Of a stretch of DNA of 64,000 nucleotides, positions 21,441 through 44,311 are shown piece by piece. The position numbers and the translations under genes are program-made. Numbering within the stretch: the stretch's first letter is position 1; the number at the start of each line of letters is the position of its first letter. The notes under the pieces are model-generated. The model was given only the letters and a program-made list of their open reading frames with translations, made no database searches and had not been told where the DNA came from. Where the stretch lies: the NCBI GenBank assembly GCA_027487835.1, contig JAIYCU010000032.1, positions 1-64,000 on the forward strand. The letters are read 5' to 3'. This DNA comes from Bacteroidota bacterium (GTDB taxonomy: Bacteria > Bacteroidota > Bacteroidia > UKL13-3).

Positions 21441-23384
21441 ATGAAAAAAGTTTTATCCTTCTGTTTGATCCTATGCGCAAAACTAGCATTGGCCCAAACA
21501 CCTCATGTGTGTTCCTTAAGTAAGCAAAATGCGTTTCAAAAAAACAGCTTAACCAAAAATAACCTTAGCGCTGCGCAAGCCAGTTTAATTGAAAAATATG
21601 ATGTGGGCTTTCATCATCTTTCATTGGCGGTTGAACGCACCAGCACTGCTATTAAAGGAAATGTTAGAACCATTGCTCGTTCAAAGGTTGCAGCCTTAGA
21701 TACTTTCCTTTTTCAATTGCACGCTAACTTTACGGTTGACTCTATCCTTGGGTCAAACCAAAACCTTTATGCTTTCACCAAACTTGGCGATGTTACTGCA
21801 GTTATTTTGCCGCAAAGTATTGGCTTGAACCAAACCATTGACCTCACTATTTATTACCGAGGCACACCGCCAAGCGGCGCCAGTGCTGCCATTGGAAACG
21901 GCTTTAGCAACCGTGCTTCCCCTACTTATGGCAATCAAATAACTTGGAGTTTGAGTCAGCCTTATAGCGCTTATGAGTGGTGGCCCTGCAAGCAATCGCT
22001 GCAAGATAAAATAGATTCTATTTTTGTGAGTGTTACAACTGATACCGCCAATAAAGTAGGCTCACACGGACTGCTTAAACAAATAGAACCAAAACCCAAT
22101 GGCAAACATACTTATCACTGGCAAAGTTTTTACCCCATCAACTATTATTTGGTGATGGTAACAGTTGGCCAGTATGCAGAATATAGGCAATATGCTAAGC
22201 CAAAAGGTTATGCAGATAGTATTCTTATTCAGAATTATATTTACAGCAACCCAGCAGCTTATACCAATAACGCCACAAGCATTTTGGCTACCAAACCACA
22301 ATTAGAACTGTTCTCCGATATATTTGGTCTGTATCCTTTTCATCAAGAAAAATATGGCCATGTAATGGCACCCTTTAGCGGAGGTATGGAGCACCAAACC
22401 ATGAGCAGCATAGGAATTTTTAATTATGGCATAGTAGCCCATGAGGTTGCCCATCAATGGTTTGGCGACAATGTTACCTGCGCCACTTGGGCTGATATTT
22501 GGTTAAACGAAGGTTTTGCTTCGTATAGTGAATACTTGGCTAGATTTTATTTATTACCCAATACTGCTTCACAAGAGTTAAGTGATATGCATGCAGCAGC
22601 CAAACAAGAAGTTGGTTCAGTATATGTAACCGATACCGCCAATGTAAATAGAATATTTAGCAGCTCTTTAACTTATAATAAAGGGGCGGCCGCCATTAGG
22701 GTATTGCATTACTTATTGGGAGATTCTATGTTTTATAAGGTTTGTAAAACCTATCAAACCCGTTTTGCAAATAGCAATGCCAGTACACAAGATTTTAATG
22801 ATTTGGTAAACGAACTTAGTGGTAAAAACTACGATTTTTATTTTGAACAATGGATTTATGGCGTTGGTTTCCCAACTTATACCACAACATGGAATCAAAC
22901 AAATGGCAAATTCTATTTAAAAGTAAAACAAACCAATACTCAAAATGGAGGCTTATTTAGTTTACCCATTGCATTTACCCTAAAACGCGCCACTGGCGAT
23001 ACCTTCCTTATATTAGATATCAATACAAGCGAGCACAATTTTGAATTTCCCATAGGCGGTACTATAAGCAGTGTAGTTATAGATCCAAATGTTTGGATAT
23101 TAAAAAACAGCACCTTAACAAAGGATGCCAGTTTAAGCATTGGGGAGCAGGCAGAAACATTGGGCTTGCTTGCTTATCCAAATCCGGGAGAAGGAATGCT
23201 TTGGTTTGAACCAAGTTTGCAAAGTACGGTTTGGTTAGAAGTAATTGATTTAAGGGGCAGAATCTGCATGACCTTAAGTGGCAAAGAAGGTTTTGATTTG
23301 CGCCAATTACAAGCAGGTATTTATGTGCTGCGTTTACGTGACCAAGAGGGAAGACAACAGATGATTAAATATCAGAAATATTGA
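21441..23384 (+). CDS. secreted M1 family aminopeptidase with T9SS tail
   Basis: A 647-residue gluzincin. Signal peptide to residue 19 (ALAQ), M1 N-terminal beta domain, substrate motif GGMEH (314-318), zinc site HEVAHQWFGD with His334, Glu335, His338 and Glu357 (WLNEGFASY), then a type IX sorting tail from about 575 (AYPNPGEGMLWFEP ... DLRGRICMTLSG ... GIYVLRLRD). It is much shorter than ERAP-type M1 enzymes and lacks the large C-terminal helical domain. Probably a surface or secreted aminopeptidase feeding peptide uptake. GGTTTGAACC copy at 23203. Confidence 0.9.
   Translation: MKKVLSFCLILCAKLALAQTPHVCSLSKQNAFQKNSLTKNNLSAAQASLIEKYDVGFHHLSLAVERTSTAIKGNVRTIARSKVAALDTFLFQLHANFTVDSILGSNQNLYAFTKLGDVTAVILPQSIGLNQTIDLTIYYRGTPPSGASAAIGNGFSNRASPTYGNQITWSLSQPYSAYEWWPCKQSLQDKIDSIFVSVTTDTANKVGSHGLLKQIEPKPNGKHTYHWQSFYPINYYLVMVTVGQYAEYRQYAKPKGYADSILIQNYIYSNPAAYTNNATSILATKPQLELFSDIFGLYPFHQEKYGHVMAPFSGGMEHQTMSSIGIFNYGIVAHEVAHQWFGDNVTCATWADIWLNEGFASYSEYLARFYLLPNTASQELSDMHAAAKQEVGSVYVTDTANVNRIFSSSLTYNKGAAAIRVLHYLLGDSMFYKVCKTYQTRFANSNASTQDFNDLVNELSGKNYDFYFEQWIYGVGFPTYTTTWNQTNGKFYLKVKQTNTQNGGLFSLPIAFTLKRATGDTFLILDINTSEHNFEFPIGGTISSVVIDPNVWILKNSTLTKDASLSIGEQAETLGLLAYPNPGEGMLWFEPSLQSTVWLEVIDLRGRICMTLSGKEGFDLRQLQAGIYVLRLRDQEGRQQMIKYQKY
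23203..23212 (+). repeat. dispersed decamer GGTTTGAACC, copy 7
   Basis: Exact copy inside the T9SS tail of the M1 peptidase gene; read as Phe-Glu-Pro. Last copy before a 20.7-kb motif-free stretch. Confidence 0.8.
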
Positions 23385-23385
23385 G

Positions 23386-23416
23386 TTTGTCCAAAATTTA
23401 GAAAGGCGTATATTTG
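23386..23416 (+). promoter_or_regulatory. promoter of tRNA-Arg
   Basis: TTTG (23386-23389), 19-bp spacer, TATATTTG (23409-23416): a full match to the Bacteroidota -33/-7 consensus. The -7 box ends 17 nt before the tRNA 5' end. The clearest promoter in the window. Confidence 0.75.
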
Positions 23417-23433
23417 TGCAGCCCTAGGGCAAT

Positions 23434-23505
23434 GGTCTCGTAGTTCAACGGATAGAATAGATGTTTCCTAAACATTTGATAGCAGTTCGATTCTGCTCGA
23501 GACTA
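23434..23505 (+). tRNA. tRNA-Arg (anticodon CCT)
   Basis: A 72-nt cloverleaf: acceptor GGTCTCG/CGAGACT (one G-T pair), D arm GTTC...GAAT, anticodon stem GATGT/ACATT with loop TTCCTAA (anticodon CCT, reads AGG), T arm AGCAG-TTCGATT-CTGCT, discriminator A. CCA is not encoded. A consensus promoter lies upstream and a terminator downstream. Confidence 0.93.
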
Positions 23506-23540
23506 CAGAAGCTTTTAGCGGTTAGCTATTGGCTGTTAGT

Positions 23541-23573
23541 AAAAACCTGTCAAGATTTTGGCAGGTTTTTTTT
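23541..23573 (+). terminator. rho-independent terminator after tRNA-Arg
   Basis: Stem AAAAACCTGTCAA / TTGGCAGGTTTTT with a short GATT loop, followed by an unbroken T run. Confidence 0.85.
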
Positions 23574-24087
23574 GTGTTTTGGGGTTGCCACTGATGCACA
23601 GGTAATTGATTTGCTTTAGTTGTGGGGTATCATTTTATATTTAAGAATGTACACAGATGACTTAGTGCGTTTCGCGCACTTTGAGGATTGACATTGAATT
23701 TGATGAAAAATTGTCATTTTTTGCTTATAGAATTTACCAAAATGTATCAAAGTAAAAACAATATGCTTCAATATTTAAGCAATTTGCTTTGACGCTTTGC
23801 TCTTTTGGTTCAAACTAATAATAGATTAAATCTTTGTGCTCTTAATTTAAGTCATCTATAGATTGAAATTAAATCTATGTAAACTGCTTTTGCTTCTCCA
23901 TTAAACTGAATTGCTTTTAGGTTAAACCAAAATGAAACTTGTTACCTGACAAAATGGCTCAGCAAATAAGCAAAACGCTTTTACATCCACCCAACTTGCT
24001 TCTCATCTGAAGTAATTTGCTTCATTGGGTTCCTAAACGATTGAAATTTATACAATTCAATTGGCTGGAAATAATTATTTTTGATTT
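23574..24087. promoter_or_regulatory. 514-bp regulatory spacer upstream of the amylase gene
   Basis: No coding frame is convincing. It holds a GC-rich hairpin AGTGCG-TTTCG-CGCACT (23664-23680), six TTGCTT words (23721, 23784, 23890, 23911, 23996, 24017) and two complements AAGCAA (23777, 23968), and the word GATTGAAATT twice (23861, 24039). Some TTGCTT copies are 21 bp and 106 bp apart. A promoter-like TATTTTTG (24076-24083) ends 4 nt before the amylase ATG. This looks like a multi-site regulator region for glucan-induced expression. Confidence 0.45.
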
Positions 24088-26793
24088 ATGAGAAGGCTTA
24101 TTATTTTATTTTTAGTATTCATTCAATATACTTTTTCTTTTGCTCAGAATCTAAAAGAAGAGTCGATCTATTTTTTATTAACCACACGCTTTTTCGATGG
24201 GGATTCAAGCAATAACAGGCCTACTGAATGGTGCTCCTATTATCCAAATTCCGGCAATAATGTTACAAATCCTCAGGATGTAACATGGAGAGGTGATTTT
24301 AAAGGTTTAGTTCAGAAGTTAGATTACATTAAGGACATGGGTTTTACAGCCATTTGGATTACACCGATCGTGCAAAATAGAAGTCCGCTCGATTACCATG
24401 GTTATCATGCATGGGATTTTACCAAAGTTGATCCAAGGTATGAGTCCCCAGGATATACCTTTAAAACATTTATCGATTCAGCACATGCAAAAGGATTGAA
24501 AGTTATTCTTGATGTAGTCTTAAATCATGCAGGACGCTTTGGTGTGAAAGGCCGGGCTGAGATAAAATACAATACTGACCCCAATCAGCCATGGGGAAAA
24601 AGGAGCAATGGTCAACCCTTAACAGATAATTCAAATTGGCAGTACAACGGAATAACACCTAATCCAGAGGATGGGAAAATTTGGAGCAGGGCAAATCTGG
24701 CCAAATTGCCTCCTCCTTACAATAACAATTTGGCTGCTTTCAATTGGCCATCAATGGAGAGCTATGTTAATACAAGTGATGGGGCTTGGTATAATAAATC
24801 TGGTAATGGTTTCGCACAGGGTTTTGACGATACAACAAACCTTTATTATCGAGCACTTGCAGGAGATACACCTGATTTTTTAACAAGAGGTGATAGTGTA
24901 AGAAATTACTTATTTAATGCCTATAAGACTTTTATTGACATGGGTATTGATGGGATGCGATTAGATGCCTTAAAGCATATGCCCAAAAGAGATGTTTTGT
25001 ATTTTGTGGATAGGTTTAAGCAAGTAAACCCAAACCTAATGATTTTTGGAGAAGTTGCTCAAAAGCGACATGAATTGCATCAAATAGAAGAGATAAATCC
25101 GCACTGGTATACATGGAGAGGAAACACGAATAGTTCTGCCAATAGCGAAATTTCAATTCTAGATTTTTATGCCATGGGTACCTTTCATTTGTTTGGCAAA
25201 GGAGAAGGCTTTTCAGGTGTTAAAGCAGCAGCACGTTACGATCATTTGTATGCAGATCCCGGGTCAAATGTGCTATTTTTAGATAATCATGACTTTGGAC
25301 CAAATAATGATTGGAACAGACGTTATGACGGATCAGAAGAGAATTTAGCTGCTGCTTTAAATTTTATGTTTACTTGGAGAGGATTGCCTTGCGTTTATTA
25401 TGGAACCGAGGTGCAATTTAAAAAGGGAGCTTATTGCGATATTCATAGTGCCAACGATATAAACAATAGCATTGATTTGACTGGTCGCGCTTATTTTGGG
25501 AATGAAATTGTAAACGCGCCTAATCATAAAATCTATAAGCACATTCGTAAATTAAATGCAATGCGAAAAGCAATTCCTGCCCTACAAAAAGGAACCTGGC
25601 GATGGGATGGCACAAATGCAGGGAATGGTGTTGGTTTTGTTAGGAAATTTGGAACAAGTGAATGTGCAGTTGGCCTTGCAAAAGATGGCGCTTGTTCTTT
25701 CTCTTTCTCTGGTTTAACCAATGGAATTTACAGAGACGCTGTTACAGGTGCAGAGGCTACTGTGTCAAATGGAACCTTAAGCTTCACAGTGTCTGGTTCT
25801 AGTGCAGGAATTTATGTGTTAAATGGGACTGGAAGAATAGGGGCTTTGGGTGAAGGATTTTTTCAAAGCAGCAGCACTGGCGGATCTGGAAATACAGGAG
25901 GCGTAAGCAGTGTTCCAAGCAACCCAATTCCTGGTCAAAATACTACCATTACTTACACGGGTAATTTGGCATCGGGTAATTTAGTAGTAATGCATTATAG
26001 CTTCGACAACTGGGCAGTTGGTGGCATTAACAATGCCAATATGACTAAACAAGGAAATAGTTGGGTAACTACCGTTTTAGTTCCGGCAAGTGCCAAATTA
26101 AACTTATCGGCTGCATTTAATAATGGGTCAGGAACATGGGATAATAATAATGGTCAGGATTACAAGATTGCACTTTCACAACCTGACATTACTAGCCCAA
26201 TTTTATCGAGTATTTTACCAGCAAACGGTGCGCAAAATATAAATAATCAGCCAGCATTGCGACTCACCTTCAATGAAGCAGTAAGGCTTGGTCAAGGGGC
26301 AATAAGTATTTATGAAAATGGGATATTAAAGACAAGCATCAATGTTGCAAACCATCAAGGAAAATTGATAGTAAACGGACAAAGTGTAGAAATTTTGGGG
26401 CAAAATTTTCAAGCGGGCAGTTTGGTTAACATAATAATCAGCAGCGGGGCAATTGAGGATTTAGTAGGAAATGATTTTGCGGGAATTCAAGGTTCTTCGG
26501 GTTGGTCTTTTTCTATTACTCAAGGCACATCGATTGATGAAGCAATTGTAAGGACTGATTTAGTCATTTATCCAAATCCTACAGTTGACAAAATTTGGAT
26601 TGATTTTGGAATAGCTATGCAAGCTGAAAGATTGGCAATTGTTGATTTAAAAGGAAGGGTAATAATTGATCAGGTACTTCAAACATCATCAACTTTAGAA
26701 GTTGATTTACGTAATTTAGGGAATGGCGTTTACAATTTAATAGTTACTAAATCTGATGGGACATTGATACATCGAAAAATAGTAAAGCAGTAA
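24088..26793 (+). CDS. secreted GH13 alpha-amylase-like enzyme with CBM and T9SS tail
   Basis: A 901-residue glycoside hydrolase. Signal peptide to about residue 19 (FSFAQ); GH13 barrel with nucleophile Asp293 (GMRLDALKH), acid/base Glu322 (IFGEV) and transition-state Asp402 (LDNHD), plus DVVLNHAG near 142. Then a starch-binding module resembling CBM25 (about 605-700; HYSFDNW, TWDNNNGQDYKIAL), a bacterial Ig-like domain (about 705-810) and a type IX sorting tail (IYPNPTVDKIWIDF...). It should attack alpha-1,4-glucans outside the cell or on its surface. It lies upstream of the SusCD operon but has its own spacer on both sides. Confidence 0.92.
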   Translation: MRRLIILFLVFIQYTFSFAQNLKEESIYFLLTTRFFDGDSSNNRPTEWCSYYPNSGNNVTNPQDVTWRGDFKGLVQKLDYIKDMGFTAIWITPIVQNRSPLDYHGYHAWDFTKVDPRYESPGYTFKTFIDSAHAKGLKVILDVVLNHAGRFGVKGRAEIKYNTDPNQPWGKRSNGQPLTDNSNWQYNGITPNPEDGKIWSRANLAKLPPPYNNNLAAFNWPSMESYVNTSDGAWYNKSGNGFAQGFDDTTNLYYRALAGDTPDFLTRGDSVRNYLFNAYKTFIDMGIDGMRLDALKHMPKRDVLYFVDRFKQVNPNLMIFGEVAQKRHELHQIEEINPHWYTWRGNTNSSANSEISILDFYAMGTFHLFGKGEGFSGVKAAARYDHLYADPGSNVLFLDNHDFGPNNDWNRRYDGSEENLAAALNFMFTWRGLPCVYYGTEVQFKKGAYCDIHSANDINNSIDLTGRAYFGNEIVNAPNHKIYKHIRKLNAMRKAIPALQKGTWRWDGTNAGNGVGFVRKFGTSECAVGLAKDGACSFSFSGLTNGIYRDAVTGAEATVSNGTLSFTVSGSSAGIYVLNGTGRIGALGEGFFQSSSTGGSGNTGGVSSVPSNPIPGQNTTITYTGNLASGNLVVMHYSFDNWAVGGINNANMTKQGNSWVTTVLVPASAKLNLSAAFNNGSGTWDNNNGQDYKIALSQPDITSPILSSILPANGAQNINNQPALRLTFNEAVRLGQGAISIYENGILKTSINVANHQGKLIVNGQSVEILGQNFQAGSLVNIIISSGAIEDLVGNDFAGIQGSSGWSFSITQGTSIDEAIVRTDLVIYPNPTVDKIWIDFGIAMQAERLAIVDLKGRVIIDQVLQTSSTLEVDLRNLGNGVYNLIVTKSDGTLIHRKIVKQ

Positions 26794-27282
26794 ATTTAAT
26801 TTCAAAAATTTGCAGAAGCATAGAAACAAATTGCTTCCTATAAGCGAAAAAGCCTCAAGCTAATTTCCAAACACAACCTAAAAATTCATTTTAAAAGTAC
26901 CAAAATATGACTAATAATATTGGTAAAATGGATTAAAAATAGGGATAAACACTCAATTAAAAGGTAAAAGTGGGCTATTTTGACGCTCAAAGGTTCTAAA
27001 TTAAAGCTCCAATAAAATATTATATATATTTATTTATCAATTATTTACATTTTCATGTAGTAGCTATGATGTAGACTTCTTATTTAATGATGTAGGTGTT
27101 TTGGGTAGCCAAGAAAAGGTATTTAGATAATTTCAATAGACATTCACAAAACCATTTTGAAATTATACGAGCAACGAATACGGCAAAATGTTTACCAATT
27201 AAATTTTTTATGAGAAAAATACCCAGCATCTTAAACTTAAAAGTATCTATTCTAAAACATCTATAAAGTAAAACTAAATACA
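26794..27282. other. 489-bp spacer upstream of susC
   Basis: AT-rich, without a credible gene. A TTGCTT word like those upstream of the amylase occurs at 26831. A short frame at 27210-27266 encodes an 18-residue peptide (MRKIPSILNLKVSILKHL); a leader-peptide role is possible but unsupported. The promoter of the SusCD operon should lie here, but I cannot place it with confidence. Confidence 0.35.
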
Positions 27283-30177
27283 ATGAGAGGAAAATTTACA
27301 CTTCTGCCCTTAGCACTCCTGTTGGGTTTTTCTACACAACAAGTAAGCGGGCAAACGGGTCCAAAACCCGGTAAACTAGCCGACACAACTAAACTTTCTG
27401 AAGTGGTTGTAGTAGGTTACGGAACCCGAAAGGTCACAAAAGTTTCAGGTGCAATTTCTACCATTAAAAGCATCGAAATTGAAAAGTTACAACCTGTAAG
27501 GGTTGAAGACGCTTTGCAAGGAAGAGCCTCAGGCTTATCTATTATCAATAGTGGAAGTCCGGGTTCAAAGCCAACTGTTTTTGTGAGGGGGATACCTTCC
27601 TTTTCTGGGACAGATCCATTGGTAATTATTGATGGTGTGCCTCAAACCCTTACTGATTTAAATGCAATCAATGCTGCTGACATAGAATCAATTAGTGTAT
27701 TAAAAGACGCAGCAACAACTGCAATCTATGGGGTTAAAGGGGGCAACGGAGTAATTGTAGTAACTACTAAAACAGGTAAACAAAATCAAAAAACCGATAT
27801 CAACTACAGCAGCTATTATGGATTCCAAGAAGTAGTAAACACAGTTGGGGTATTAAATGCTACAGAATATGGTGCCATGGTGAATGAAGGAAGTAGGTTA
27901 GCTGGTGGTGGTTTGGTATTCTCTGATTTGAGCAAATTGGGCGTTGGTACCAATTGGCAAAATGAAGTTTTTAAAAGGGCAGCTATTCAATCTCACAATG
28001 TGACGGCTAGAGGTGGAAGTGATAAGATGACATATTTCTTATCTGCAGGGGCATTGCAACAAGGTGGAATTGTTGGAGGCATGGATAAATCTAACTTCAA
28101 TAGAGGAAATATAACAGCAAACTTGATTTTTGATTTAACACCAAAATTAAAGTTTATAATGAACACAACCGGTGTTGTATTAAATAGCAAAGGTGTACAA
28201 GAAAACGCTTTTAATAGTGTACTAGGTAGTGCCATTAATTTTGACCCAACAGTAGAAAATACCAATGTTGGATACAGTAATTTACTTTTGTCTGAAATAT
28301 ACAATCCACTTACCAAATTAGATAATACCTATAACAGAAATGTGGGTACCAAAATCTATGGTAAATTTGAATTTCAGTATGACATCATTAAAAACTTAAA
28401 AGTAAGTACTCGCTTTGGGTATACAAAATTTGACAATGATGCCAAATCTTTTACACCACTTGTTTTTTATGGCCCATTTAACGTAGACAATACAATGAAT
28501 GCAGATGGCACACCGGTAGCTGGCAAGCACAATCAAGTTAACCATGATAAAATGGGTAATTTTAATTGGACCTGGGAATCATTTGCCAATTATAACTTTA
28601 AATACAAAGAGAACCACGACTTTGAGACAGTTGTTGGATTTGCGGTGGCTAAAGTATCAGGAAATGCACTAGGTGCTAGTCGCCAAGATGTGCCATTTAA
28701 CTCATGGGAGTTTGCAGATTTTACAGCTGCCACAGGCGCCAATACAGCTTTAAACCCAACCGCAATTAATGGCTATTATTACCAATATTTTAGAAGAAAT
28801 CTATCCTCATTTGGTCGTATTAACTATGACTATAAATCACGCTATTTAGCCTCACTTACTGTTAGACGTGATGGCTCTTATGCCTTTGGAATTGATAATA
28901 AATTTGCCAACTTCTATTCTGGTTCATTGGGATGGATAGTTTCTGAAGAAGACTTTTTCAAATCTAAATTCATCAATAACTTTAAAATCAGAGGAAGCTA
29001 TGGTGCAATTGGAAACGAAAATGTAAATCCTCAATTTGTAGGAATTATAATAGGCGGCCCAAGTTATGGCCCAACAGGCAATAGCAATGGTTATAGTTTT
29101 GGAGACATCTTTGTACCTGGCGCAACGGTAGGTTCAGCAGCAAACAACGCTTTGAGATGGGAAAAACAAATTCAATCAAACTTTGGATTTGACATGATTT
29201 TCCATAAATATAAATTCTCATTAAGTGCCGATATATTTAGGAAAGCTGTAGACGGATTATTATTTACCCCGTCGGCGTCACTTTATTTAGGAACAGTGCC
29301 TATTCCAACAGATAATATTGGATCAACCCAAACCACAGGAATAGATATCACCTTTGCTTACTATGAGAAAATTAAAGACAAAGTAAAAATTAACAATTCT
29401 ATCACCTTTACAGCTGCCAAAAACGAAGTTACAGCCACCAATACAGATGGTACTGCCAGAATATTTGGCGGGTATTATTTCAATGGACAATCGCAAAGTG
29501 TAACAGTATTTGAAAAAGGATTTTCACCTGGCTATTTCTATGGGTACAAAACTGATGGTTTGTTTCAGAATGAGCAACAGATTTCTGGTTCTGCCACACA
29601 ACTAGGTGCAAAGCCTGGTGATATAAAATTTGTAGACATAAACAACGATGGTGTAATTAATGAAAATGATCGCACTCAAATTGGCAATCCATTTCCAGAC
29701 TTTACATTGGGTTGGAACTTGAACATTGAATACAAGAACTTTGATTTAAATGCATTCACTTATGCATCGGTAGGCAATGACATTTACAGGGCATATGAAC
29801 GTAATGCAAACTATACCAATAAAGACAGGAGAATCTTAGAAAGATGGACATCCGAAGGAAGCACCAACGATGCACAGAATCCAAGGTATTCATTTGTTGA
29901 TGCAAACAACAACAGCAGGGTTTCTGACAGGTACGTTGAGGATGGATCTTTTGTAAAGTTAAAAAATATACAATTGGGCTACAACTTCAGCAACTTTCCT
30001 AAGCGCATAAAAATCAATAAAATTAGGGTTTATGCGCAAGTAAAGAATGCTTTTGTAATAACGAAATACACTGGTTTTGATCCAGAAATTGCAGGCGGCG
30101 TTTTAGACACAGGTATTGACAGAGGTGCCTATCCACAAGCAAGAACATTTGCCTTAGGAATTGATGTTAAATTTTAA
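27283..30177 (+). CDS. susC: SusC/RagA family TonB-dependent outer-membrane transporter
   Basis: A 964-residue transporter that imports oligosaccharides with the SusD lid. Signal peptide to about residue 24; TonB-box-like LSEVVVVGYG at 38-47; plug domain (VEDALQGRASGLSI, VFVRGIPSFSGTDPLVIIDG, IESISVLKDAATTAIYG), then a 22-strand type barrel ending in TFALGIDVKF. The usual carboxypeptidase-like domain between signal peptide and plug is missing: only about 14 residues separate them. First gene of susC-susD-SGBP-SGBP-GH16. It probably carries glucan fragments. Confidence 0.93.
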   Translation: MRGKFTLLPLALLLGFSTQQVSGQTGPKPGKLADTTKLSEVVVVGYGTRKVTKVSGAISTIKSIEIEKLQPVRVEDALQGRASGLSIINSGSPGSKPTVFVRGIPSFSGTDPLVIIDGVPQTLTDLNAINAADIESISVLKDAATTAIYGVKGGNGVIVVTTKTGKQNQKTDINYSSYYGFQEVVNTVGVLNATEYGAMVNEGSRLAGGGLVFSDLSKLGVGTNWQNEVFKRAAIQSHNVTARGGSDKMTYFLSAGALQQGGIVGGMDKSNFNRGNITANLIFDLTPKLKFIMNTTGVVLNSKGVQENAFNSVLGSAINFDPTVENTNVGYSNLLLSEIYNPLTKLDNTYNRNVGTKIYGKFEFQYDIIKNLKVSTRFGYTKFDNDAKSFTPLVFYGPFNVDNTMNADGTPVAGKHNQVNHDKMGNFNWTWESFANYNFKYKENHDFETVVGFAVAKVSGNALGASRQDVPFNSWEFADFTAATGANTALNPTAINGYYYQYFRRNLSSFGRINYDYKSRYLASLTVRRDGSYAFGIDNKFANFYSGSLGWIVSEEDFFKSKFINNFKIRGSYGAIGNENVNPQFVGIIIGGPSYGPTGNSNGYSFGDIFVPGATVGSAANNALRWEKQIQSNFGFDMIFHKYKFSLSADIFRKAVDGLLFTPSASLYLGTVPIPTDNIGSTQTTGIDITFAYYEKIKDKVKINNSITFTAAKNEVTATNTDGTARIFGGYYFNGQSQSVTVFEKGFSPGYFYGYKTDGLFQNEQQISGSATQLGAKPGDIKFVDINNDGVINENDRTQIGNPFPDFTLGWNLNIEYKNFDLNAFTYASVGNDIYRAYERNANYTNKDRRILERWTSEGSTNDAQNPRYSFVDANNNSRVSDRYVEDGSFVKLKNIQLGYNFSNFPKRIKINKIRVYAQVKNAFVITKYTGFDPEIAGGVLDTGIDRGAYPQARTFALGIDVKF

Positions 30178-30198
30178 TTACACTAATTGAATTAAAAA

Positions 30199-31707
30199 AT
30201 GAAAAGAGAATTATCAACAGTAGTTTTTTTGTCGGTGTTGGTTATAACATTGGCATCTTGTAAGAAGTGGGTAGATTACAGCCCAAATGAAGATTTTAAA
30301 CAAACAGAATTAGATTACCTTAGAGCAGAAGCAGACTATCGCACGATGGCAGTGAGCGTATACACTCCCATTCAATGGTTGAACCAAAGTGTTGTTATAG
30401 GAGAAATTGCATCAGACAACTCGGTAGCAGGTGGAGAAAGTGCCTCTGATATATTACCCTTGCAACAAATAGACGACATGTCCCATACTGCCAATAATTC
30501 AACACTAACTGAATTATGGCAAGCAGCATTTGAAGGCATTAACAGGGCAAATTATTTACACCAATACAAAGCCAAAAATCCAGGTGGTATTGCAGTAAAC
30601 TTTACTGGCAAAGAGGCCTTATATGGCGAAGTATATTTCTTGCGTGCTTATTATTATTTTCATTTGGTGCGTTTCTTTGGTGATGTACCACTGTTTGTAG
30701 ACAGGCGTCTAGGATTAACCGAAAGTAAATCATTGAAACGCTCAGACAAAGCACTTGTTTATGCACAAATTGAAAGTGACTTATTAAGTGCAATCGCAGT
30801 TCTTCCTAGTGCTCAAATTGAAAAAGGAAGGGTTACAAAATATGCCGCACAGGCCTTGTTAGGAAAAGTTTATTTATACCAACAGAAGTACACTGATGCT
30901 GCCGATATGCTTGCCAATGTAATTAATTCAAATGCATTTAGTTTGCCATCAAATTTTGAAGGGATTTTTCTTTCGAGTGGCGAAAACGGACCAGAATCTG
31001 TATTTGAAATTCAATACTCTAACACAAGTCCATACTTTAATTGGGGCGCAGTAAACAGAGGTCAAGGAAACCATTCGGTTCAACAATGTGGGATAAGAGG
31101 AATTAATGGAACAGATTCAATGCCATATGCGGCAGGTTGGAGCACCAATTTACCTACAACAGATCTAGCTGCTGCTTACCAAAGTGGCGACAAAAGAAAA
31201 TCAGTAACTGTGCTGGATATTGCAGCCTATAAAGCCGCCCACCCAAGTTATAACATTACCTATCAAGAAGCTCCATTTAAGAACACTGGTTTATACAATC
31301 AAAAATACTTGCCTAGAAAAGGACAAACCTCTGGGCAAATAGAATTAAACTATTTAAACAATTACCGCACCATCCGTTATGCCGACGTTTTACTAATGGC
31401 GGCAGAGGCCTTAGTAAAATCTGGTGGCAGTGAAGTAAAAGCCTTGTCATATGTTAACTTGATTAGAGAAAGGGCATTTGGCGATAATGCCCACAACATT
31501 TCTGCAAGTGGCAATGCTTTATATCTAGCCATTTTAGATGAAAGAAGATTAGAGTTAGCCATGGAAGGCGATCGATTTTTTGATTTGGTAAGAACAGGTA
31601 TGGCAGAAACAAAAATTACTGGATTTGTGAAAGGGAAACATGAAGTGTTTCCTATTCCTTTTGAGGAAATTAACATTTCTGGTTTAACTCAAAATGCTGG
31701 TTATTAA
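30199..31707 (+). CDS. susD: SusD/RagB family nutrient-binding lipoprotein
   Basis: A 502-residue lipoprotein (lipobox LASC, Cys21). TPR-type helices and family signatures: LWQAAFEGINRANYL, AEVYFLRAYYYFHLVRFFGD-like stretch near 150-170, and the C-terminal DERRLELAMEGDRFFDLVRTG. It caps the SusC barrel and binds the polysaccharide at the surface. Lies 21 bp after susC. A near-match of the dispersed motif, GGTTGAACC, occurs near 30379. Confidence 0.93.
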   Translation: MKRELSTVVFLSVLVITLASCKKWVDYSPNEDFKQTELDYLRAEADYRTMAVSVYTPIQWLNQSVVIGEIASDNSVAGGESASDILPLQQIDDMSHTANNSTLTELWQAAFEGINRANYLHQYKAKNPGGIAVNFTGKEALYGEVYFLRAYYYFHLVRFFGDVPLFVDRRLGLTESKSLKRSDKALVYAQIESDLLSAIAVLPSAQIEKGRVTKYAAQALLGKVYLYQQKYTDAADMLANVINSNAFSLPSNFEGIFLSSGENGPESVFEIQYSNTSPYFNWGAVNRGQGNHSVQQCGIRGINGTDSMPYAAGWSTNLPTTDLAAAYQSGDKRKSVTVLDIAAYKAAHPSYNITYQEAPFKNTGLYNQKYLPRKGQTSGQIELNYLNNYRTIRYADVLLMAAEALVKSGGSEVKALSYVNLIRERAFGDNAHNISASGNALYLAILDERRLELAMEGDRFFDLVRTGMAETKITGFVKGKHEVFPIPFEEINISGLTQNAGY

Positions 31708-31726
31708 TTATTAAAAAATAAAACCC

Positions 31727-33292: not shown

Positions 33293-33303
33293 TATTGAAA
33301 AAC

Positions 33304-34203: not shown

Positions 34204-34204
34204 C

Positions 34205-35230: not shown

Positions 35231-35268
35231 TGTTGTAAAGAATAATTCATTGCAACAGATTGGGCAAT

Positions 35269-35303
35269 AATACCCTGCTAGATAAATTATCTGGTAGGGT
35301 ATT
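35269..35303 (+). terminator. terminator of the glucan-utilisation operon
   Basis: Imperfect stem AATACCCTGCTAGAT / ATCTGGTAGGGTATT with a short AT loop, 38 bp after the GH16 stop, followed by an AT-rich run. Confidence 0.7.
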
Positions 35304-35346
35304 TATTTATAAGTTTTAAATGAAACCTAAATGGAAAAGTGCACAC

Positions 35347-35487
35347 TTATTTCTTGATCAATTTAAAATTAGTTTCTCTTAGTACCAAAAAGTAAATTCC
35401 AGGAGAAAAATCACTTAGGTTAATGTTAACATCAAGTTCCTCTATTTTCTCAGAAATAAGCAAATTTCCATAAATAGTCAAGCGCAT
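35347..35487 (-). pseudogene. orphan T9SS sorting-tail fragment
   Basis: The minus strand encodes 46 residues, MRLTIYGNLLISEKIEELDV followed by NINLSDFSPGIYFLVLRE..., with the form of the last third of a type IX sorting domain. It resembles the tail of the SGNH-like protein at 36217 (GNLLECKKIEALETSINLSE, GIYLLEV). An in-frame stop lies 2 codons upstream of the ATG and no secreted protein body precedes it, so this is probably the remnant of a deleted T9SS protein at the edge of the glucan locus. Confidence 0.6.
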
Positions 35488-35560
35488 TTCTTAATGAAAT
35501 AAATGTTAATTAATGCCTGGGTGTTGAAGAATAAAACAGAAACAAATCTAAATGCAAATA

Positions 35561-36136
35561 CTATTCACGATGCTTTAGAAATCTTGCAGGAACGCCTCCC
35601 CAAATTTCATAAGGATTAATATCTTTATTCACTAAACAATTTGCACCAATTATAGCCCCATCACCAATTTTAACACCTTTTAGGATGGTTACACCTCTTC
35701 CAATCCATACGTCAGCACCAATAGTAATATCTGCAATTTTTGCCTTTTGGTTCATTATTAAATCTCCTTTAGAAAAACTGTGATCTTGGTCAATTATGAA
35801 TACATCGGGTCCAATTCTTGTATATTTTCCTATTGTTAATTTTCCTTTAATTGAAAAGTAACAATTTCTTCCAACACCAGAAAAATCGCCAATTGTAATG
35901 CTTGGATTTGGCATTGTTAAGATAAAATAACTATTCTCTTTCAATGTGCAGGACTGTCCAATAACAATCTTAGCATTATCAGTTAAATTAAATTCATTAC
36001 CCGATTTTATTATTGAATTGGACCCTACTTTAATTTTATTATTGCGCAACGTATAAAAAAGCGTAATTAATTTATCCCTCCAAGAGCGATTATAAGAGCT
36101 TGCCTTATCTTTTAATTCAAATCTTGTTACATGCAT
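35561..36136 (-). CDS. hexapeptide-repeat acyltransferase
   Basis: Left-handed beta-helix O-acetyltransferase of the WbbJ/maltose-acetyltransferase type. The helix runs from about residue 60 (IVIGQSCTLKENSYF, ITIGDFSGVGRNCYF, LTIGKYTRIGPDVFI), then active-site QDHS, ADVWIGRGVTILKGVKIGDGAIIGANCLV and the GGVPARFL end motif. I choose the ATG at 36136 (MHVTRFELKDK); a TTG at 36175 would add 13 residues. It probably decorates a surface polysaccharide, fitting the nearby glycosyl- and methyltransferase genes. Confidence 0.85.
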   Translation of the reverse strand: MHVTRFELKDKASSYNRSWRDKLITLFYTLRNNKIKVGSNSIIKSGNEFNLTDNAKIVIGQSCTLKENSYFILTMPNPSITIGDFSGVGRNCYFSIKGKLTIGKYTRIGPDVFIIDQDHSFSKGDLIMNQKAKIADITIGADVWIGRGVTILKGVKIGDGAIIGANCLVNKDINPYEIWGGVPARFLKHRE

Positions 36137-36216
36137 GGGAGGCAAGTTAAGCACTTTTATTTGGAGAATATACAAAAAATAATTCTATTAAAACGCTAAT
36201 CATCAAATTGCATCTT

Positions 36217-37485
36217 CTATTGCTTTAAAAACTTAAAATGGCTTGTTCCTACTTCTAACAAATAAATTCCTTGGGGTAGCTCACTTAGATTTATGCTGGT
36301 TTCTAATGCTTCTATTTTCTTGCATTCAAGCAAGTTTCCAGAGGCACTATACAACTTATAAAGTGTCCCAAAAGAAGCATCCATGACCGTAAAATAAACA
36401 AACGACTCTGCAGGATTTGGAAACACCTGCACTTTTTGAGGGGATAAATGATTAAAACCCGTTGTACTAATAGCAACCTCTGTCCAAGAAGTATCTGTTT
36501 CATTGCATCTAAATGCTACTAAATTTACCTTGAAGTTTCCGTTAGTTTTATAGGTATGCAAAGGCTCAAATTGTGTAGAAGTATCGCCATCACCAAATTC
36601 CCATAAATAGCCGTCTGCATTTGTTGAGGTATTTTGAAACTGAATGGTTTTGGGATTGGAAGTTTGATGTTTGAAGTTTGCTTTTGGTCCAAATTCACCA
36701 AGGTTCCAATCGCGTAACTTTTGATAAACAATCAACTTTGCCGCTTCTCTAATGGCCGCGGCTTGGGTAGTTGGCAATCCGCCATTATTTGTAATGAGAG
36801 TAGGATCTTTCTTGAGAATGAGTGCATAAAATGAACAAGCAGCAGCATAACTTCCTGCCAATGAAGGATGGCTTTCATCTGCGTTGTAAAGTTCGATGCT
36901 TGGGCTATTTGCTCTAAGGTATTTCCAAACGGCCCCTACGGGTGATAGTAAGGCTTTGTTATCATCAGCCATTTTCCTGTATCGCAACGCCAATAAACTA
37001 TCCATGCCTGTGTAGGTACATACGGGTGGCCAGGTTGGGCAGTTTTGAGCATCACCATTTTTTCTTCCCCATGTCATATAAAATACTGTCTTTGTACAGT
37101 TATTATTTGCCTTTATCAAACTATCCAAAGCCCTAGCATAAGGAAATACCTGGGTTTCCACTTGTTCAGATGGAAATGAGGGCAATTGGCTTTGCTCTTG
37201 TAATACAACATAATCCCATTTTTGGGAATTTATTTTTGCAAGTGACACTTCATTTTTTGAATGCCCCATTAATGTAAAACCACCTGGAGTATTGGCATCA
37301 GTTTGCAGGGTGTCTCCACTGGAAAGTGCTATATTGGTTAAAAGTAAAGGCAGGTTATTATATTGCGTATAGCTGTTACCTAGAAAAAGCACTTTGCGGG
37401 TGCCTGATTGCCCATTGACTTTTGCTTCAATTGTTAAAAAAGCTAAAAAAAATAGGATTATCCTAGCCCAAATTTTAGGAAACAT
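36217..37485 (-). CDS. T9SS-secreted SGNH/DUF4886-like hydrolase with PKD domain
   Basis: A 422-residue protein. Signal peptide to about residue 25; SGNH-type beginning KVLFLGNSYTQYNNLP with Ser as probable nucleophile; VLQEQSQLP; and DESHPSLAGSYAAA carrying the Asp-x-x-His part of the triad. A PKD domain follows (about 265-340; GYLWEFGDGDTSTQFEP), then a type IX tail (VFPNPAESFVYF ... GIYLLEVG). It may deacetylate a polysaccharide or another ester outside the cell. The substrate is not visible. Confidence 0.75.
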   Translation of the reverse strand: MFPKIWARIILFFLAFLTIEAKVNGQSGTRKVLFLGNSYTQYNNLPLLLTNIALSSGDTLQTDANTPGGFTLMGHSKNEVSLAKINSQKWDYVVLQEQSQLPSFPSEQVETQVFPYARALDSLIKANNNCTKTVFYMTWGRKNGDAQNCPTWPPVCTYTGMDSLLALRYRKMADDNKALLSPVGAVWKYLRANSPSIELYNADESHPSLAGSYAAACSFYALILKKDPTLITNNGGLPTTQAAAIREAAKLIVYQKLRDWNLGEFGPKANFKHQTSNPKTIQFQNTSTNADGYLWEFGDGDTSTQFEPLHTYKTNGNFKVNLVAFRCNETDTSWTEVAISTTGFNHLSPQKVQVFPNPAESFVYFTVMDASFGTLYKLYSASGNLLECKKIEALETSINLSELPQGIYLLEVGTSHFKFLKQ

Positions 37486-37495: not shown

Positions 37496-38410
37496 TTAAC
37501 GATATAAAAATGTTGCTATTCCACCCTCTTGTACTTCATGAATCAGTTCAAAGTTTGGATGTTGCTTAGTAAAATCAAGAGTTTGGTTATACCAAAGTCT
37601 TGGTCGTTCTCTATGTTGTCTCCAATCTTGCATTACAATTATTGTTTTGTTTGGGACAAAGTTTTTTGAAAAGATATTAAACCAAGCATTATTCGCATCT
37701 AGTGTTCTGCCACAATCAACTATAATGATTTCTATATTTTTATCTTCCCATTTTATTTGAGGAAGATTTTCATTTCCATCAAAATTTGTAAACTTACCTT
37801 GATATACCTGTATTTTGTCTAAAATATTAGCAGCGTATCTTTCAAAAATAAATTTGAAGTCGCCGTGATTATTTGGCCTATCAGCATCAGCATAATGGGG
37901 GTCCATCCAAGAAGATCGCCAAACAAAATCATCAAAAACATGCAACCTTTTATCATTAAACAACTGATTTTTACTAAAAGCATCCACTAAATGCAGGGTT
38001 GAATGCCCAAACCATGGCCCAAGTTCTATTACTTCTCCCCATCCAGAGTAGCTTTTGGCTATATAGTGATAATAACGTATTTCCTCCTTTGAAATCATGC
38101 CAGGCATATCATATACTTTTGGGTTTTCACTTAGCCATGGAGCAAATTTATCCATGATTGAATATTCTAATTGAAACTGCCCCTTCTCATTCTCCCAGCC
38201 AAGAACTTTTCCCTTAGGTGTGCTGCTAATTCTTTGAAAATCCTCAATCAACAATTGTAGTCTCTCCATTTGGTTCGATAAGTTCAATAACTGCTTATCA
38301 GACATAGATTTAAAACCTAATTCAATTGTATTTAGACAAAATTGAATTTGTGTATCTAATGGAATTTGGGAGAAAATTTTTCTTCCATATTTTGTAAATA
38401 TTGAACCCAT
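37496..38410 (-). CDS. class I SAM-dependent methyltransferase-like protein
   Basis: A 304-residue protein. A Rossmann-type core starts around residue 130 with VIELGPWFGHSTLHLVDAF (SAM motif I), then LHVFDDFVWRSSWMD, and IIIVDCGRTLDANNAWF as the acidic strand 4. This matches the Methyltransf_24/TylF-like group, which often modifies sugars. It is 11 bp from the hydrolase gene downstream and near an acyl- and a glycosyltransferase, suggesting surface-glycan work. The acceptor is unknown. Confidence 0.65.
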   Translation of the reverse strand: MGSIFTKYGRKIFSQIPLDTQIQFCLNTIELGFKSMSDKQLLNLSNQMERLQLLIEDFQRISSTPKGKVLGWENEKGQFQLEYSIMDKFAPWLSENPKVYDMPGMISKEEIRYYHYIAKSYSGWGEVIELGPWFGHSTLHLVDAFSKNQLFNDKRLHVFDDFVWRSSWMDPHYADADRPNNHGDFKFIFERYAANILDKIQVYQGKFTNFDGNENLPQIKWEDKNIEIIIVDCGRTLDANNAWFNIFSKNFVPNKTIIVMQDWRQHRERPRLWYNQTLDFTKQHPNFELIHEVQEGGIATFLYR

Positions 38411-38687: not shown

Positions 38688-39323
38688 ATGAACCAAGTGC
38701 GAAATATCCATCAGTTAACCAAGTTTGAGTATAAAAGCTATTTTGAACAAGCCGTTGATTTTGATTCTTACCTGAACAAAATGCAGGAGGAAGCGGCTTT
38801 GAAATCTGAAGAGGGTCTATTGTCTTATGTTCCCATGAACTTGCAACGTGTAACACGGATTCTTAAAACCTATGAGGTTTCTTCGAGTTTATTAGAAACT
38901 ATTGAGCAAATTCAACATAAAATTTATTGGCTTGTTATTACAGAAAATTGGTGTGGAGATGCGGCACAGATTATTCCGGTTATGCACAAAATTGCACAAA
39001 GCGCTGGCGGTAAAATTAATTTGAAACTTATTTATAGAGATGAACATCTGCCCTTAATAGATGCCCACCTAACAGGTTCAAGCAGATCTATCCCCAAATT
39101 AATACAATTAGACACTCACTTTAACCTAACCGCAATCTGGGGACCTAGGCCAAATGATGCCCAGCAGCTAGTGGTAGAACTAAAAAATAATCCAGCAACT
39201 GCAGACAAATACAGTGAAGAACTTCATAAATGGTATGCCCAGAATAAACAGACTTATATAGAACGTGACTTAATCAAGGCAATTCAAAAAGGGTCTGCCT
39301 TATGCGCAGATTGCTTTATTTAA
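38688..39323 (+). CDS. thioredoxin-like protein with WCGD active site
   Basis: A 211-residue protein of the bacterial thioredoxin_9-type group. After a helical N-terminus the fold holds WLVITENWCGDAAQIIPVMH with Cys89 but Asp91-Ala92 where the second cysteine would be, then the cis-proline region SRSIPKLIQL. A C-terminal CADC pair might act as resolving cysteines. No signal peptide, so cytoplasmic. The role is probably thiol chemistry; the partner is unknown. Confidence 0.75.
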   Translation: MNQVRNIHQLTKFEYKSYFEQAVDFDSYLNKMQEEAALKSEEGLLSYVPMNLQRVTRILKTYEVSSSLLETIEQIQHKIYWLVITENWCGDAAQIIPVMHKIAQSAGGKINLKLIYRDEHLPLIDAHLTGSSRSIPKLIQLDTHFNLTAIWGPRPNDAQQLVVELKNNPATADKYSEELHKWYAQNKQTYIERDLIKAIQKGSALCADCFI

Positions 39324-40268: not shown

Positions 40269-40285
40269 AAGGCAAATAATAGCGA

Positions 40286-41198: not shown

Positions 41199-41220
41199 CC
41201 TTCTTTTGAGAAAAACTTAA

Positions 41221-42144
41221 TTAGGGTAAAATTACCTTGTTAATTACATGTACAACTCCGTTTATAGCTTGAATATCTGCGGCAACTACAGACGCATCTG
41301 TTGTTTTGCCACCGTTTAATTTTACGCCAGAAGTAGTATTAAAAGTAAGTTCAACTGCTGTATTTAAAGTAGTTACTTTTTGTCCGTTTCCGATTTGTGT
41401 TGATCTTACTTGGCTGCCTAGAACATGGGCAGTTAAAATTGGGACTAACTGCTCTTTAGTGGTTCCCTCTAAGTTAAAATTGATATCAGCAAAAGCTTGA
41501 TTAATGGGTGCAAATACCGTTAGGTTATCTGTATTGTCTAAAGTTTCTACCAATTCTGCTTTGGCAACTGCAGCTACCAAAGAGGTAAACAAAGGATCAT
41601 TTATAGCAATATCCACTACAGTTGGAGGCAACAAAACAGCATCAATAATGTGCACTACACCATTACTTGCATCAACATCCGCGGTGATTACATTTACATC
41701 TTTGTTTAATTTTATTGGAGCAATTCCAATTTTTAAGGAAACGCCATTATTACCAACTTTAAATAAAGTAGGTTCATACGCATTTTTTAACTGGGTAGAT
41801 TTAACTTCGGTACCTAAAACATGGTATAACAATACTGATTTAAATCCTTCAAGATCTTCTCCTGATAAGCCATTGATATATTTCTCATCAATTTGTAGTG
41901 CTCTGAAGGCTGCATTTTTAGGGGCAAAAACAGTAAAGTTTCCTGTTCCGTTTAAAGTAGCAACTAAACCAGCCTTAGTAAGCCCTGCCACTAAAATAGA
42001 AAATGAAGTATCGGCACTTGCAATACCTACTATGGTTTTTTGGGTTGGGGTTGGGGTTTCTTTTTTGTCTTCTTCTTTTGTACAAGCAGTAAACAATAGT
42101 GCAGAGGCTACCAATGCGCTAGTTAGAAAGCTAAGTTTTTTCAT
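41221..42144 (-). CDS. lipoprotein with two fasciclin domains
   Basis: About 307 residues from the ATG at 42144 (MKKLSFLTSALVASALLFTAC, lipobox TAC); a TTG further up would put 13 residues before the signal peptide. After a threonine/proline linker it has two FAS1 domains (about 35-170 and 175-305), each with TVFAPKNAAF / TVFAPINQAF, an LxxHVLG stretch and NGVVHIIDAVLLPP / NGVVHVINKVILP. FAS1 proteins act in adhesion. Probably surface-exposed. It has its own strong terminator. Confidence 0.9.
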   Translation of the reverse strand: MKKLSFLTSALVASALLFTACTKEEDKKETPTPTQKTIVGIASADTSFSILVAGLTKAGLVATLNGTGNFTVFAPKNAAFRALQIDEKYINGLSGEDLEGFKSVLLYHVLGTEVKSTQLKNAYEPTLFKVGNNGVSLKIGIAPIKLNKDVNVITADVDASNGVVHIIDAVLLPPTVVDIAINDPLFTSLVAAVAKAELVETLDNTDNLTVFAPINQAFADINFNLEGTTKEQLVPILTAHVLGSQVRSTQIGNGQKVTTLNTAVELTFNTTSGVKLNGGKTTDASVVAADIQAINGVVHVINKVILP

Positions 42145-42356
42145 GTTTAAAATTGTTTTTTTTGATTTGTAAGCTATAGACATACAAAGCCTTTCTTAGT
42201 TGTCTGAACAAGACTAAAAAAAACTATTCCAACTGATAATTAGACAAGAATATTTTTATCAAAACAATTTCTTTTCTTACTTGTACAAACACATCAAAAA
42301 TTTGTTTGTAAGTATTTGGTCTAAATTTTAGAACTTTGATTGCCGTAAAAAACCTT

Positions 42357-42872: not shown

Positions 42873-42876
42873 TAAA

Positions 42877-43719
42877 ATGGTTCAATATAATCCAAAAGAA
42901 TGGTTTGGGTTAATTTTCAAGTTTCATAAAAGTGATACTTTTAGACAACTATTTTGGGTAATGGTTTGTGTTGCCCTTTACTCCCTTCTATTGGCCTATC
43001 TAGAAATTGAAATACTTTCACTCAATTTTAAATCAACCCCGGCACTGCATAGTATTTTGGGCTTTGTCTTATCCATTTTATTAGTATTTAGAACTAATAC
43101 GGCTTATGATAGGTGGTGGGAAGGCCGAAGACATTGGGGGGCGCTCACCAATCATTCTCGCTCAATTGCTATTAAAATAAAAAACATGGTTCCTAATCAG
43201 CATTTTCATTATTCAGAGATTATGGAATGGATTGCAATTTACCCAAAGGTTTTAGCTACTCATTTAAGAAACAAGAAGCTAGACCATAAACACATACCAA
43301 ATACGGTGCACCAGCCTAATTTTGTCTATTTCAAAATTAGTGCAAGCCTAAATTTTCTAAAGACCGAAGGCGTAATAAACGATTTGCAGTTGCTTCAACT
43401 CAATACGGAGTTAATGGCTTATACCGACGTTTGTGGCGCATGCGAAAGAATTAAAAACACACCCATACCATTTAGTTATAGTATGTTTCTAAAGAAATTT
43501 ATTTTCATTTACATCATCACCATGCCGTATGGATTTATTAAAGAGTTTGAGTATGGAATTGTGTTAGTGGTAACCTTTGTTTTATATGTTTTGGGCAGTT
43601 TAGAATTGGTAGCAGAGGAAATAGAAAATCCATTTGGAACAGATGCCAACGACTTAAACCTCGATGAAATGGCCCATAACATTCAACTTAACGTGAACGA
43701 AATTGCTTACACTTTTTAA
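42877..43719 (+). CDS. bestrophin family anion channel
   Basis: A 280-residue membrane protein of the bestrophin/RFP-TM family: early WFGLIFKFHKSDTFRQLF, then NTAYDRWWEGRRHWGALTNHSR, a hallmark of bacterial bestrophins, and the C-terminal IENPFGTDANDLNLDEMAHNI. Bacterial homologues form pentameric chloride or cation channels. The AlkB-like gene starts 17 bp inside its 3' end. Confidence 0.88.
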   Translation: MVQYNPKEWFGLIFKFHKSDTFRQLFWVMVCVALYSLLLAYLEIEILSLNFKSTPALHSILGFVLSILLVFRTNTAYDRWWEGRRHWGALTNHSRSIAIKIKNMVPNQHFHYSEIMEWIAIYPKVLATHLRNKKLDHKHIPNTVHQPNFVYFKISASLNFLKTEGVINDLQLLQLNTELMAYTDVCGACERIKNTPIPFSYSMFLKKFIFIYIITMPYGFIKEFEYGIVLVVTFVLYVLGSLELVAEEIENPFGTDANDLNLDEMAHNIQLNVNEIAYTF

Positions 43720-44311
43720 CCAATCAACTTCAAACCTATTGCCATGCGACGGGGAGTTATACTTAATAGATAACTTTATTGAACCCCAAGAAGCCAACGA
43801 TATTTTCAGACAATTACAGGAAGAAATTGATTGGCAACAATATCAAATTAGAATGTTTGGTAAAATGCTCAATCAACCACGACTTACAGCATGGTATGGG
43901 CAAGCCAATATTGCATACAGTTATTCTGGTTTGAACCTAAAAGCCCAAGCCTTTACACCCTTGCTCGAAACATTAAAGACCTCCGTTGAAGCGAGCTATC
44001 AAACACAGTTTAACAGCGTATTGCTAAATCTATATCGCAACGAGAGAGACTCCATGGGCTGGCATGCAGATGATGAGAAAGAATTGGGCATAACACCTTT
44101 AATTGCTTCACTAAGTTTTGGTTCAACCCGAAAATTTTTGCTAAAACATAAAAAAGAGAAAACGCTTAAATTAAGCTTGAATTTAACACCAGGTAGTTTA
44201 GTTATCATGAAAGGAAGCATGCAACAAAATTGGTTGCATGCCATTCCAAAGGAAACAAAAACAGCTGGGGCAAGGATAAACCTTACTTATAGGGAAATAT
44301 TGAAGCGCTGA
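43703..44311 (+). CDS. alkB: AlkB-like 2-oxoglutarate/Fe(II) dioxygenase
   Basis: A 202-residue dealkylase-type oxygenase: PRLTAWYGQANIAYSYSG, iron ligands His121, Asp123 (MGWHADDE) and His179 (NWLHAIPK), and 2-oxoglutarate-binding Arg191 (GARINLTYR). It resembles the ALKBH2/3 type that removes methyl lesions from DNA or RNA. The start is probably the TTG at 43703, overlapping the bestrophin gene by 17 bp. GGTTTGAACC copy at 43928. Confidence 0.88.
   Translation: MLTLFNQSTSNLLPCDGELYLIDNFIEPQEANDIFRQLQEEIDWQQYQIRMFGKMLNQPRLTAWYGQANIAYSYSGLNLKAQAFTPLLETLKTSVEASYQTQFNSVLLNLYRNERDSMGWHADDEKELGITPLIASLSFGSTRKFLLKHKKEKTLKLSLNLTPGSLVIMKGSMQQNWLHAIPKETKTAGARINLTYREILKR
43928..43937 (+). repeat. dispersed decamer GGTTTGAACC, copy 8
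   Basis: Exact copy inside the AlkB-like gene; read as Gly-Leu-Asn. First copy after the 20.7-kb motif-free stretch. Confidence 0.8.

Follow-up and report, generated by a model that had tools for sequence, protein, structure and literature searches.

A dispersed 10-base word maintained in one Bacteroidota genus as a candidate DNA uptake sequence, and an ordinary word-free interval at a putative beta-glucan locus

The DNA under study is a stretch of 64,000 nucleotides (the window) from a Bacteroidota bacterium of the UKL13-3 lineage (assembly GCA_027487835.1, contig JAIYCU010000032.1, positions 1 to 64,000; the genome is termed G000 in the following). A 10-base word, GGTTTGAACC (reverse complement GGTTCAAACC), is dispersed throughout the window and is missing from a 20.7-kb gap at positions 23213-43927 that contains an amylase gene and a putative beta-glucan locus. 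An initial annotation had suggested that this gap may be acquired DNA and that the word could tell such DNA from resident DNA. In one Bacteroidota genus the word is maintained at the DNA level throughout the genome; this maintenance, its restriction to that genus, its dialects and its change mostly by point mutation were observed in counts and alignments. By analogy with Pasteurellaceae and Neisseriaceae, its role is most likely that of a DNA uptake sequence. We therefore favour, at a probability of roughly 45%, an explanation in two layers, in which the gap would be an ordinary interval and the word a maintained signal of the genus acting in DNA uptake.

The initial annotation spelled out no sequence, and the word was identified by its count of 14 copies per 64-kb window and by the copies flanking the gap. 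Both agreed: GGTTTGAACC is the most frequent 10-mer of the window and the only one with 14 copies, and the word-free stretch is exact, with copies starting at 23203 and 43928. Throughout G000 (3,378,966 bases, 46 contigs) the word occurs 655 times (329 and 326 copies on the two strands), as against 10 + 10 = 20 copies of the reversed word used as control, which gives a mean spacing of 5.16 kb and a density of 0.19 per kb. The over-representation is thus strong, genome-wide and present on both strands, as in a DNA uptake sequence. The word is nearly palindromic, with TG strongly preferred at its centre (145 sites, versus 10 with CG and 3 with TA), and an extended consensus, GGTTTCGGTTTGAACCAAA, is present at many non-coding copies. 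Finer counts were obtained from a sample of 831,625 bases, about a quarter of the genome, consisting of the window and parts of five contigs (nearly all of C1, C3, C6 and C9 and three quarters of C20); because the ends of the five contig samples were set at listed word positions, the count may be too high by a few copies at most. Open reading frames (ORFs) and genes were called mechanically. The copies of the window referred to in the text are:

23203..23212, + strand: copy of GGTTTGAACC in the M1-peptidase gene 21441-23384, bounding the gap on the left
43928..43937, + strand: copy of GGTTTGAACC in the 2OG-Fe(II) oxygenase gene 43703-44311, bounding the gap on the right
23807..23816, - strand: single-mismatch copy within the gap (GGTTCAAACT on the + strand)
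20268..20277, + strand: intergenic copy, an example with the extended consensus GGTTTCGGTTTGAACCAAA
53329..53338, - strand: copy identical, extension included, in the relative G009

Conservation was measured in one species pair, G000 and G009, both genomes being sampled and 432 kb aligned. Among the copies of G000 in aligned DNA, 67 of 80 were identical in G009, compared with 12.2% of all 10-mers (52,530 of 431,872) and 19.7% of other frequent 10-mers (2586 of 13,122); the word ranked first among the 933 10-mers represented by 12 or more aligned copies, and the runners-up overlap it. Inside coding copies 96% of third codon positions were identical (233 of 242), while beside them the share was 57% (2332 of 4074). 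G009 kept all 8 non-coding copies and 58 of the 70 coding ones, two sites at sampled ends being dropped. Where a site differed, 12 of 13 cases in G000 showed one or two substitutions and one a gap, and 35 of 37 sites in G009 showed substitutions without a gap. As the changes are mostly substitutions, the word is not an inserted element, and such an origin by point change is a trait of DNA uptake sequences. Non-coding DNA, 5.6% of the sample, holds 18 of 139 copies (P=0.001; counted with open-ended ORFs, six copies at sampled ends being dropped). The coding copies are spread evenly along genes, lie in both orientations and use five reading frames.

The word is confined to the genus, in which it is strongly enriched. 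A 12-mer form, GGTTTGAACCAA, occurred in 24 to 985 copies in all 19 genus genomes and in 0 to 14 copies in 45 others of the family, the sole family returned for the order, and the 10-mer ranged from 46 to 1318 copies per genus genome. Within the genus the word takes the form of dialects, whose assignment excludes G015, G017 and G018. GGTTTGAACC leads most strongly in G000, G007, G009, G013, G008 and G011, whereas a perfect palindrome, GGTTCGAACC, leads in G010 (272 copies), G012 (300) and G016 (186). A third, asymmetric form, GTCTGAACC, exceeds GGTTTGAACC in G001, G002, G005, G006 and G014, narrowly in G001 and G014, and being a 9-mer its counts are not strictly comparable; several genus genomes are mixed. 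In the sampled DNA of G012, GGTTCGAACC emerged as the top 10-mer without prior choice. Outside the genus GGTTCGAACC was found in 0 to 4 copies in 22 genomes, and GTCTGAACC in 1 to 38 copies, mostly near control, with an excess in the distant genomes G031 (24 versus 0) and G035 (33 versus 9). A tree of ComEC, the presumptive uptake channel, from 16 genus and two outside genomes had 5 of 15 inner branches well supported and most deeper branches weak; its supported groups G000+G007+G009, G010+G012 and G008+G011 each carry one dialect profile. Restriction to one taxon with dialects along the phylogeny is again what is found for DNA uptake sequences.

Several related words were noted besides. The commonest single-mismatch forms in the G000 sample were GGTTTGACCC and GGGTTGAACC (35 and 36 copies), and GTTTGACCCA, which overlaps the word, is partly conserved between G000 and G009 (14 of 23); these three may be weaker sites or older dialects. 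Other strongly repeated 10-mers are overlapping words of the TACATCGTAC type in G015 (C87) and GTAATATTAC in G012 (C12).

The non-coding excess, the origin by point mutation and the dialects are traits reported in passages on the uptake signal sequence (USS) of Pasteurellaceae and the DNA uptake sequence (DUS) of Neisseriaceae (PMC1626085, PMC3630211), and for this reason an uptake signal was judged the most likely role. The likeness extends to the shortness of the word, to its hundreds of copies, which lie on both strands and both within and between genes, and to its restriction to one taxon. The word with its extended consensus GGTTTCGGTTTGAACCAAA would then be a DNA-level signal with the lineage dialects GGTTTGAACC, GGTTCGAACC and GTCTGAACC; cells would preferentially import DNA bearing their own word through ComEC, and the imported DNA would recombine into the chromosome, by which the word copies would stay intact.

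A number of observations weigh against this reading. The uptake role is drawn by analogy with systems of a different phylum. Perfect copies, although strongly enriched, are fewer than near-misses: the G000 sample holds 145 of them, whereas the thirty single-mismatch words together reach 271 (reversed control: 7 and 124), while in the published USS and DUS genomes, as described in the passages at hand, perfect copies far outnumber singly mismatched ones. The density of 0.19 per kb is lower than that of the Neisseria uptake sequence, which is about 1 per kb. All 25 genomes examined, 16 from within the genus and nine from outside the family, have ComEC, which is equally common in the latter and so does not explain the restriction to the genus. 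The ATPase of type IV pili and type II secretion (PF00437) gave no match above the cut-off in 15 of 16 genus genomes, G000 included, and one marginal match in the sixteenth, G003. No excess of close pairs was seen, as judged by spacing only (11 gaps of <500 bases versus 11.6 expected); closely spaced pairs in opposite orientation are known from some genomes with uptake sequences and are not universal. A slight excess of the word also occurs in another genus of the family, g7 (G046: 14 versus 5 in the control for the 12-mer; G024: 19 versus 8 for the 10-mer), and the near-palindromic form would suit a dimeric DNA-binding protein as well. Finally, the word is not significantly depleted in segments that differ between G000 and G009 by insertion or deletion (indel segments), defined as unaligned runs of at least 1.5 kb between aligned blocks, which may also be strongly diverged DNA. 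The 14 segments of G000 (71.8 kb) held 10 copies versus 13.3 expected and the 13 of G009 (56.4 kb) 10 versus 13.6; pooled, the 27 segments (128 kb) held 20 versus 26.9 (P=0.11). Four unaligned runs spanning contig ends (C20 48-103 kb, c2 120-168 kb, c3 47-106 kb and c5 105-119 kb) were excluded from this count.

The main rival to an uptake signal is a binding site for a protein that organises or segregates the chromosome, with selection for occupancy preserving the copies. Noc, SlmA, MatP and KOPS are systems of this kind, and the near-palindrome with its preferred central TG, the strong conservation at silent sites and the presence of copies on both strands, within and between genes, would all fit. 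However, copy numbers between 46 and 1318 by genome, together with shifting dialects, are hard to square with selection for occupancy, and the copies show neither regular spacing in the sample nor an orientation that follows the local GC skew, itself weak (Mann-Whitney P=0.33). We consider this explanation somewhat unlikely; an oriented signal of the Chi or KOPS type was rejected for the same lack of orientation bias. Improbable, in our judgement, is a word like HIP1 of cyanobacteria, that is, an iterated palindrome that owes its origin or upkeep to a DNA methyltransferase and biased mismatch repair. Such an origin has been proposed for HIP1, which, according to passages of PMC4390886, is likewise palindrome-like and highly iterated, has a preferred extension and varies in some lineages. 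The present word differs in its asymmetric centre and in one asymmetric dialect, GTCTGAACC. Moreover, in a methyltransferase search limited to three families, the two main ones, PF01555 and PF00145, had no match in G000 at E 0.001, and a PF02086 gene was present once in G000, absent in G007 and G009, and represented in G013 by a weak, broken match only, so that none of the three tracks the word across the genus.

That the word is a dispersed mobile element, an RNA arm or an artefact of a protein motif is hardly credible, although the word resembles the T-arm sequence of tRNAs. Most differences between G000 and G009 are point changes and not insertions, none of 145 copies falls into the four tRNA genes of the sample, Rfam at the gathering threshold returned only two tRNAs as RNA features of the window, and a protein motif is contradicted by the use of five reading frames and by conservation at silent positions. 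These candidates were accordingly rejected.

The gap itself is readily accommodated by the same counts. For an interval of this length the initial annotation had expected four to five copies, where the density of G000 gives 4.0, and had put the chance of finding none, uncorrected for the choice of the largest gap, at about 1%, which is too strong: the value is 1.8% per gap, and about 12 gaps of at least 20.7 kb are expected genome-wide. When 14 random points were placed in 64 kb, the largest internal gap reached 20.7 kb in 5.6% of trials. The sample contained seven such gaps among 139, versus 3.7 expected under an exponential distribution, and gap lengths were slightly over-dispersed (coefficient of variation 1.13); the gap at 23213-43927 ranks as the seventh longest, the longest measuring 38.8 kb. 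Two gaps of 26.4 and 25.7 kb in C1 align to G009 over 98% of their length and have dxs, rpoN and uvrA between them (10 of 46 ORFs annotated). A gap of 31.4 kb in C20, with genes for an iron-sulfur/molybdopterin-type protein and for exopolysaccharide, aligns over 80% and a second C20 gap over 56%, while one C1 gap aligns over 5% and the longest, in C9, over 0%, neither of which falls within the collinear contigs sampled. Conserved backbone thus contains long gaps, and islands probably do so too. Judged by these direct counts and alignments, the gap is one of the long intervals that ordinarily arise in a near-random point process of 5.2 kb mean spacing. An accessory segment of 12.8 kb behind a tRNA-Arg gene makes such a gap easier, and the adjoining, mostly shared backbone happens to be word-free. 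As side observations, the longest gap (G000:C9 40377-79191) encodes an Mrr-NACHT protein and an AAA_13 protein and has the look of a defence island (2 of 37 ORFs scanned), and G000:C1 121606-143922 contains two giant ORFs of 3058 and 4283 amino acids, the first with GEVED and BNR-associated domains and a sorting tail of the type IX secretion system (T9SS).

The features of the gap and its surroundings are:

23434..23506, + strand: tRNA-Arg (CCT), followed by a terminator-like hairpin; collinearity with G009 ends just past it
23573..36409, no strand: accessory segment of about 12.8 kb, without counterpart here in G009 and without a word of the three dialects
24088..26793, + strand: predicted secreted alpha-amylase with alpha-amylase domain, CBM25/53-like domain and T9SS sorting tail (Pfam)
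27283..30177, + strand: SusC-like TonB-dependent receptor (Pfam, homologues)
30199..31707, + strand: SusD-like lipoprotein (Pfam, gene order)
31727..33292, + strand: PKD-domain protein (Pfam match under the curated cut-off)
33295..34203, + strand: PKD-domain protein (Pfam)
34205..35230, + strand: protein with PKD domain and GH16 glycoside hydrolase of the beta-glucanase/laminarinase type, the substrate being inferred
35561..36175, - strand: hexapeptide-repeat transferase (Pfam)
36217..37485, - strand: DUF4886-PKD protein with T9SS tail, collinear in G009 (70% identical)
37496..38410, - strand: possible methyltransferase (Pfam match under the cut-off), collinear in G009 (63%)
38688..39323, + strand: thioredoxin-like protein, collinear in G009 (83%)
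41221..42183, - strand: fasciclin-domain protein, collinear in G009 (76%)
42877..43719, + strand: bestrophin-like channel, collinear in G009 (82%), where the gene has a word

Within the gap, Pfam identified the amylase with its T9SS tail, the SusCD unit, a second T9SS-tailed protein (DUF4886-PKD) and, besides the genes listed, a family-2 glycosyltransferase; two proteins of the gap had no Pfam match. One of these matchless proteins and the glycosyltransferase lie at 39339-41077, in a segment of about 1.9 kb (39328-41217) that does not align to G009. From gene order and Pfam matches, SusC, SusD, two PKD proteins and the GH16 enzyme would form one operon of the SusCD beta-glucan type.

Comparison with G009 showed that the locus is composite. 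In G009 the M1-peptidase gene is followed by the tRNA, a tandem array and the DUF4886 gene, and the intervening 12.8 kb or so of G000 are missing; the array, at G009:C2 about 171400-171640, consists of TTTATGGAGTAGCTCCGCACC-like units of about 22 bases and takes the place of the G000 segment behind the tRNA-Arg terminator. Collinearity with G009 holds for the genes at 36.2-38.4, 38.7-39.3 and 41.2-44.3 kb, and G009 has 11.6 kb of its own between the homologues of 37496-38410 and 38688-39323. An acquired origin is therefore tenable for 23573-36409, some 12.8 of the 20.7 kb, which are absent from G009 at a place where the flanking genes adjoin, and not for the collinear rest; the segment may also have been lost from G009 instead of inserted in G000. 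It was not assigned to the integrase-type islands at tRNA genes, as no integrase was among the Pfam matches of its seven ORFs and no duplicated tRNA 3' end was present (no word of 13 to 30 bases shared between 23381-24090 and 24091-36600).

The five-gene beta-glucan unit occurs in the same order, SusC-SusD-two PKD-GH16, in Chitinophagaceae, with SusC about 71-73% identical; it is a member of the known SusCD/GH16 (laminarin/beta-glucan) loci without notable difference and is patchy across the genus. A close SusC was present in four of 19 genus genomes, G000, G002 (94%), G003 (84%) and G008 (82%), and the four copies of the unit form one supported group. SusC is 94% identical between G000 and G002, whereas the backbone bestrophin gene is only 66% identical, and at the three flanked genus loci no match to other genes of the window was found at E 1e-10 within the flanks covered (left 10 kb in two and 0.9 kb in one, right 5 kb). 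The simplest reading of these sequence comparisons is that the unit was transferred within and into the genus.

In the light of these data, the proposal of the initial annotation that the gap is a single acquired island of 20.7 kb, and that the word marks resident DNA, is very improbable. The accessory segment is indeed word-free (0 words versus 2.8 expected, three dialects counted), the longest gap, in C9, holds two defence-like genes, and the indel segments show a mild shortfall at best. This shortfall is non-significant, however, and the beta-glucan units of G003 and G008 bear genus words, the four copies of the unit having three versus 5.9 expected. The word is thus a weak marker, by which an individual locus cannot be classed as resident or acquired DNA, and a single island is already contradicted by the collinear genes from 36.2 kb onwards. 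The initial annotation had named a vertically inherited locus in close relatives and equally long gaps in core regions as evidence against its proposal, and both were found at least in part, the former in the collinearity with G009 and the latter in the 26.4- and 25.7-kb backbone gaps with dxs, rpoN and uvrA.

The gap is of little consequence in itself, and the word is the more important result. We put forward, tentatively, that GGTTTGAACC and its dialects may be the first system of DNA uptake sequences in Bacteroidota, by which one genus would recognise its own DNA independently of pili and in which species dialects would channel gene exchange, including that of loci for carbohydrate use such as the beta-glucan unit. 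Among the literature titles listed there was none on a dispersed genome word with these letters or on a DNA uptake sequence of this type in Bacteroidetes or Bacteroidota. Riemerella columbina, also of the Bacteroidota, prefers its own DNA, and in the passages concerned its authors left the signal open (PMC7965970). Sequence-based recognition of self-DNA is established in two proteobacterial families. A silently conserved, dialect-forming word would offer a direct test of whether tagged uptake has evolved separately in Bacteroidota without type IV pili and, if this is true, the dialects would predict which species exchange DNA.

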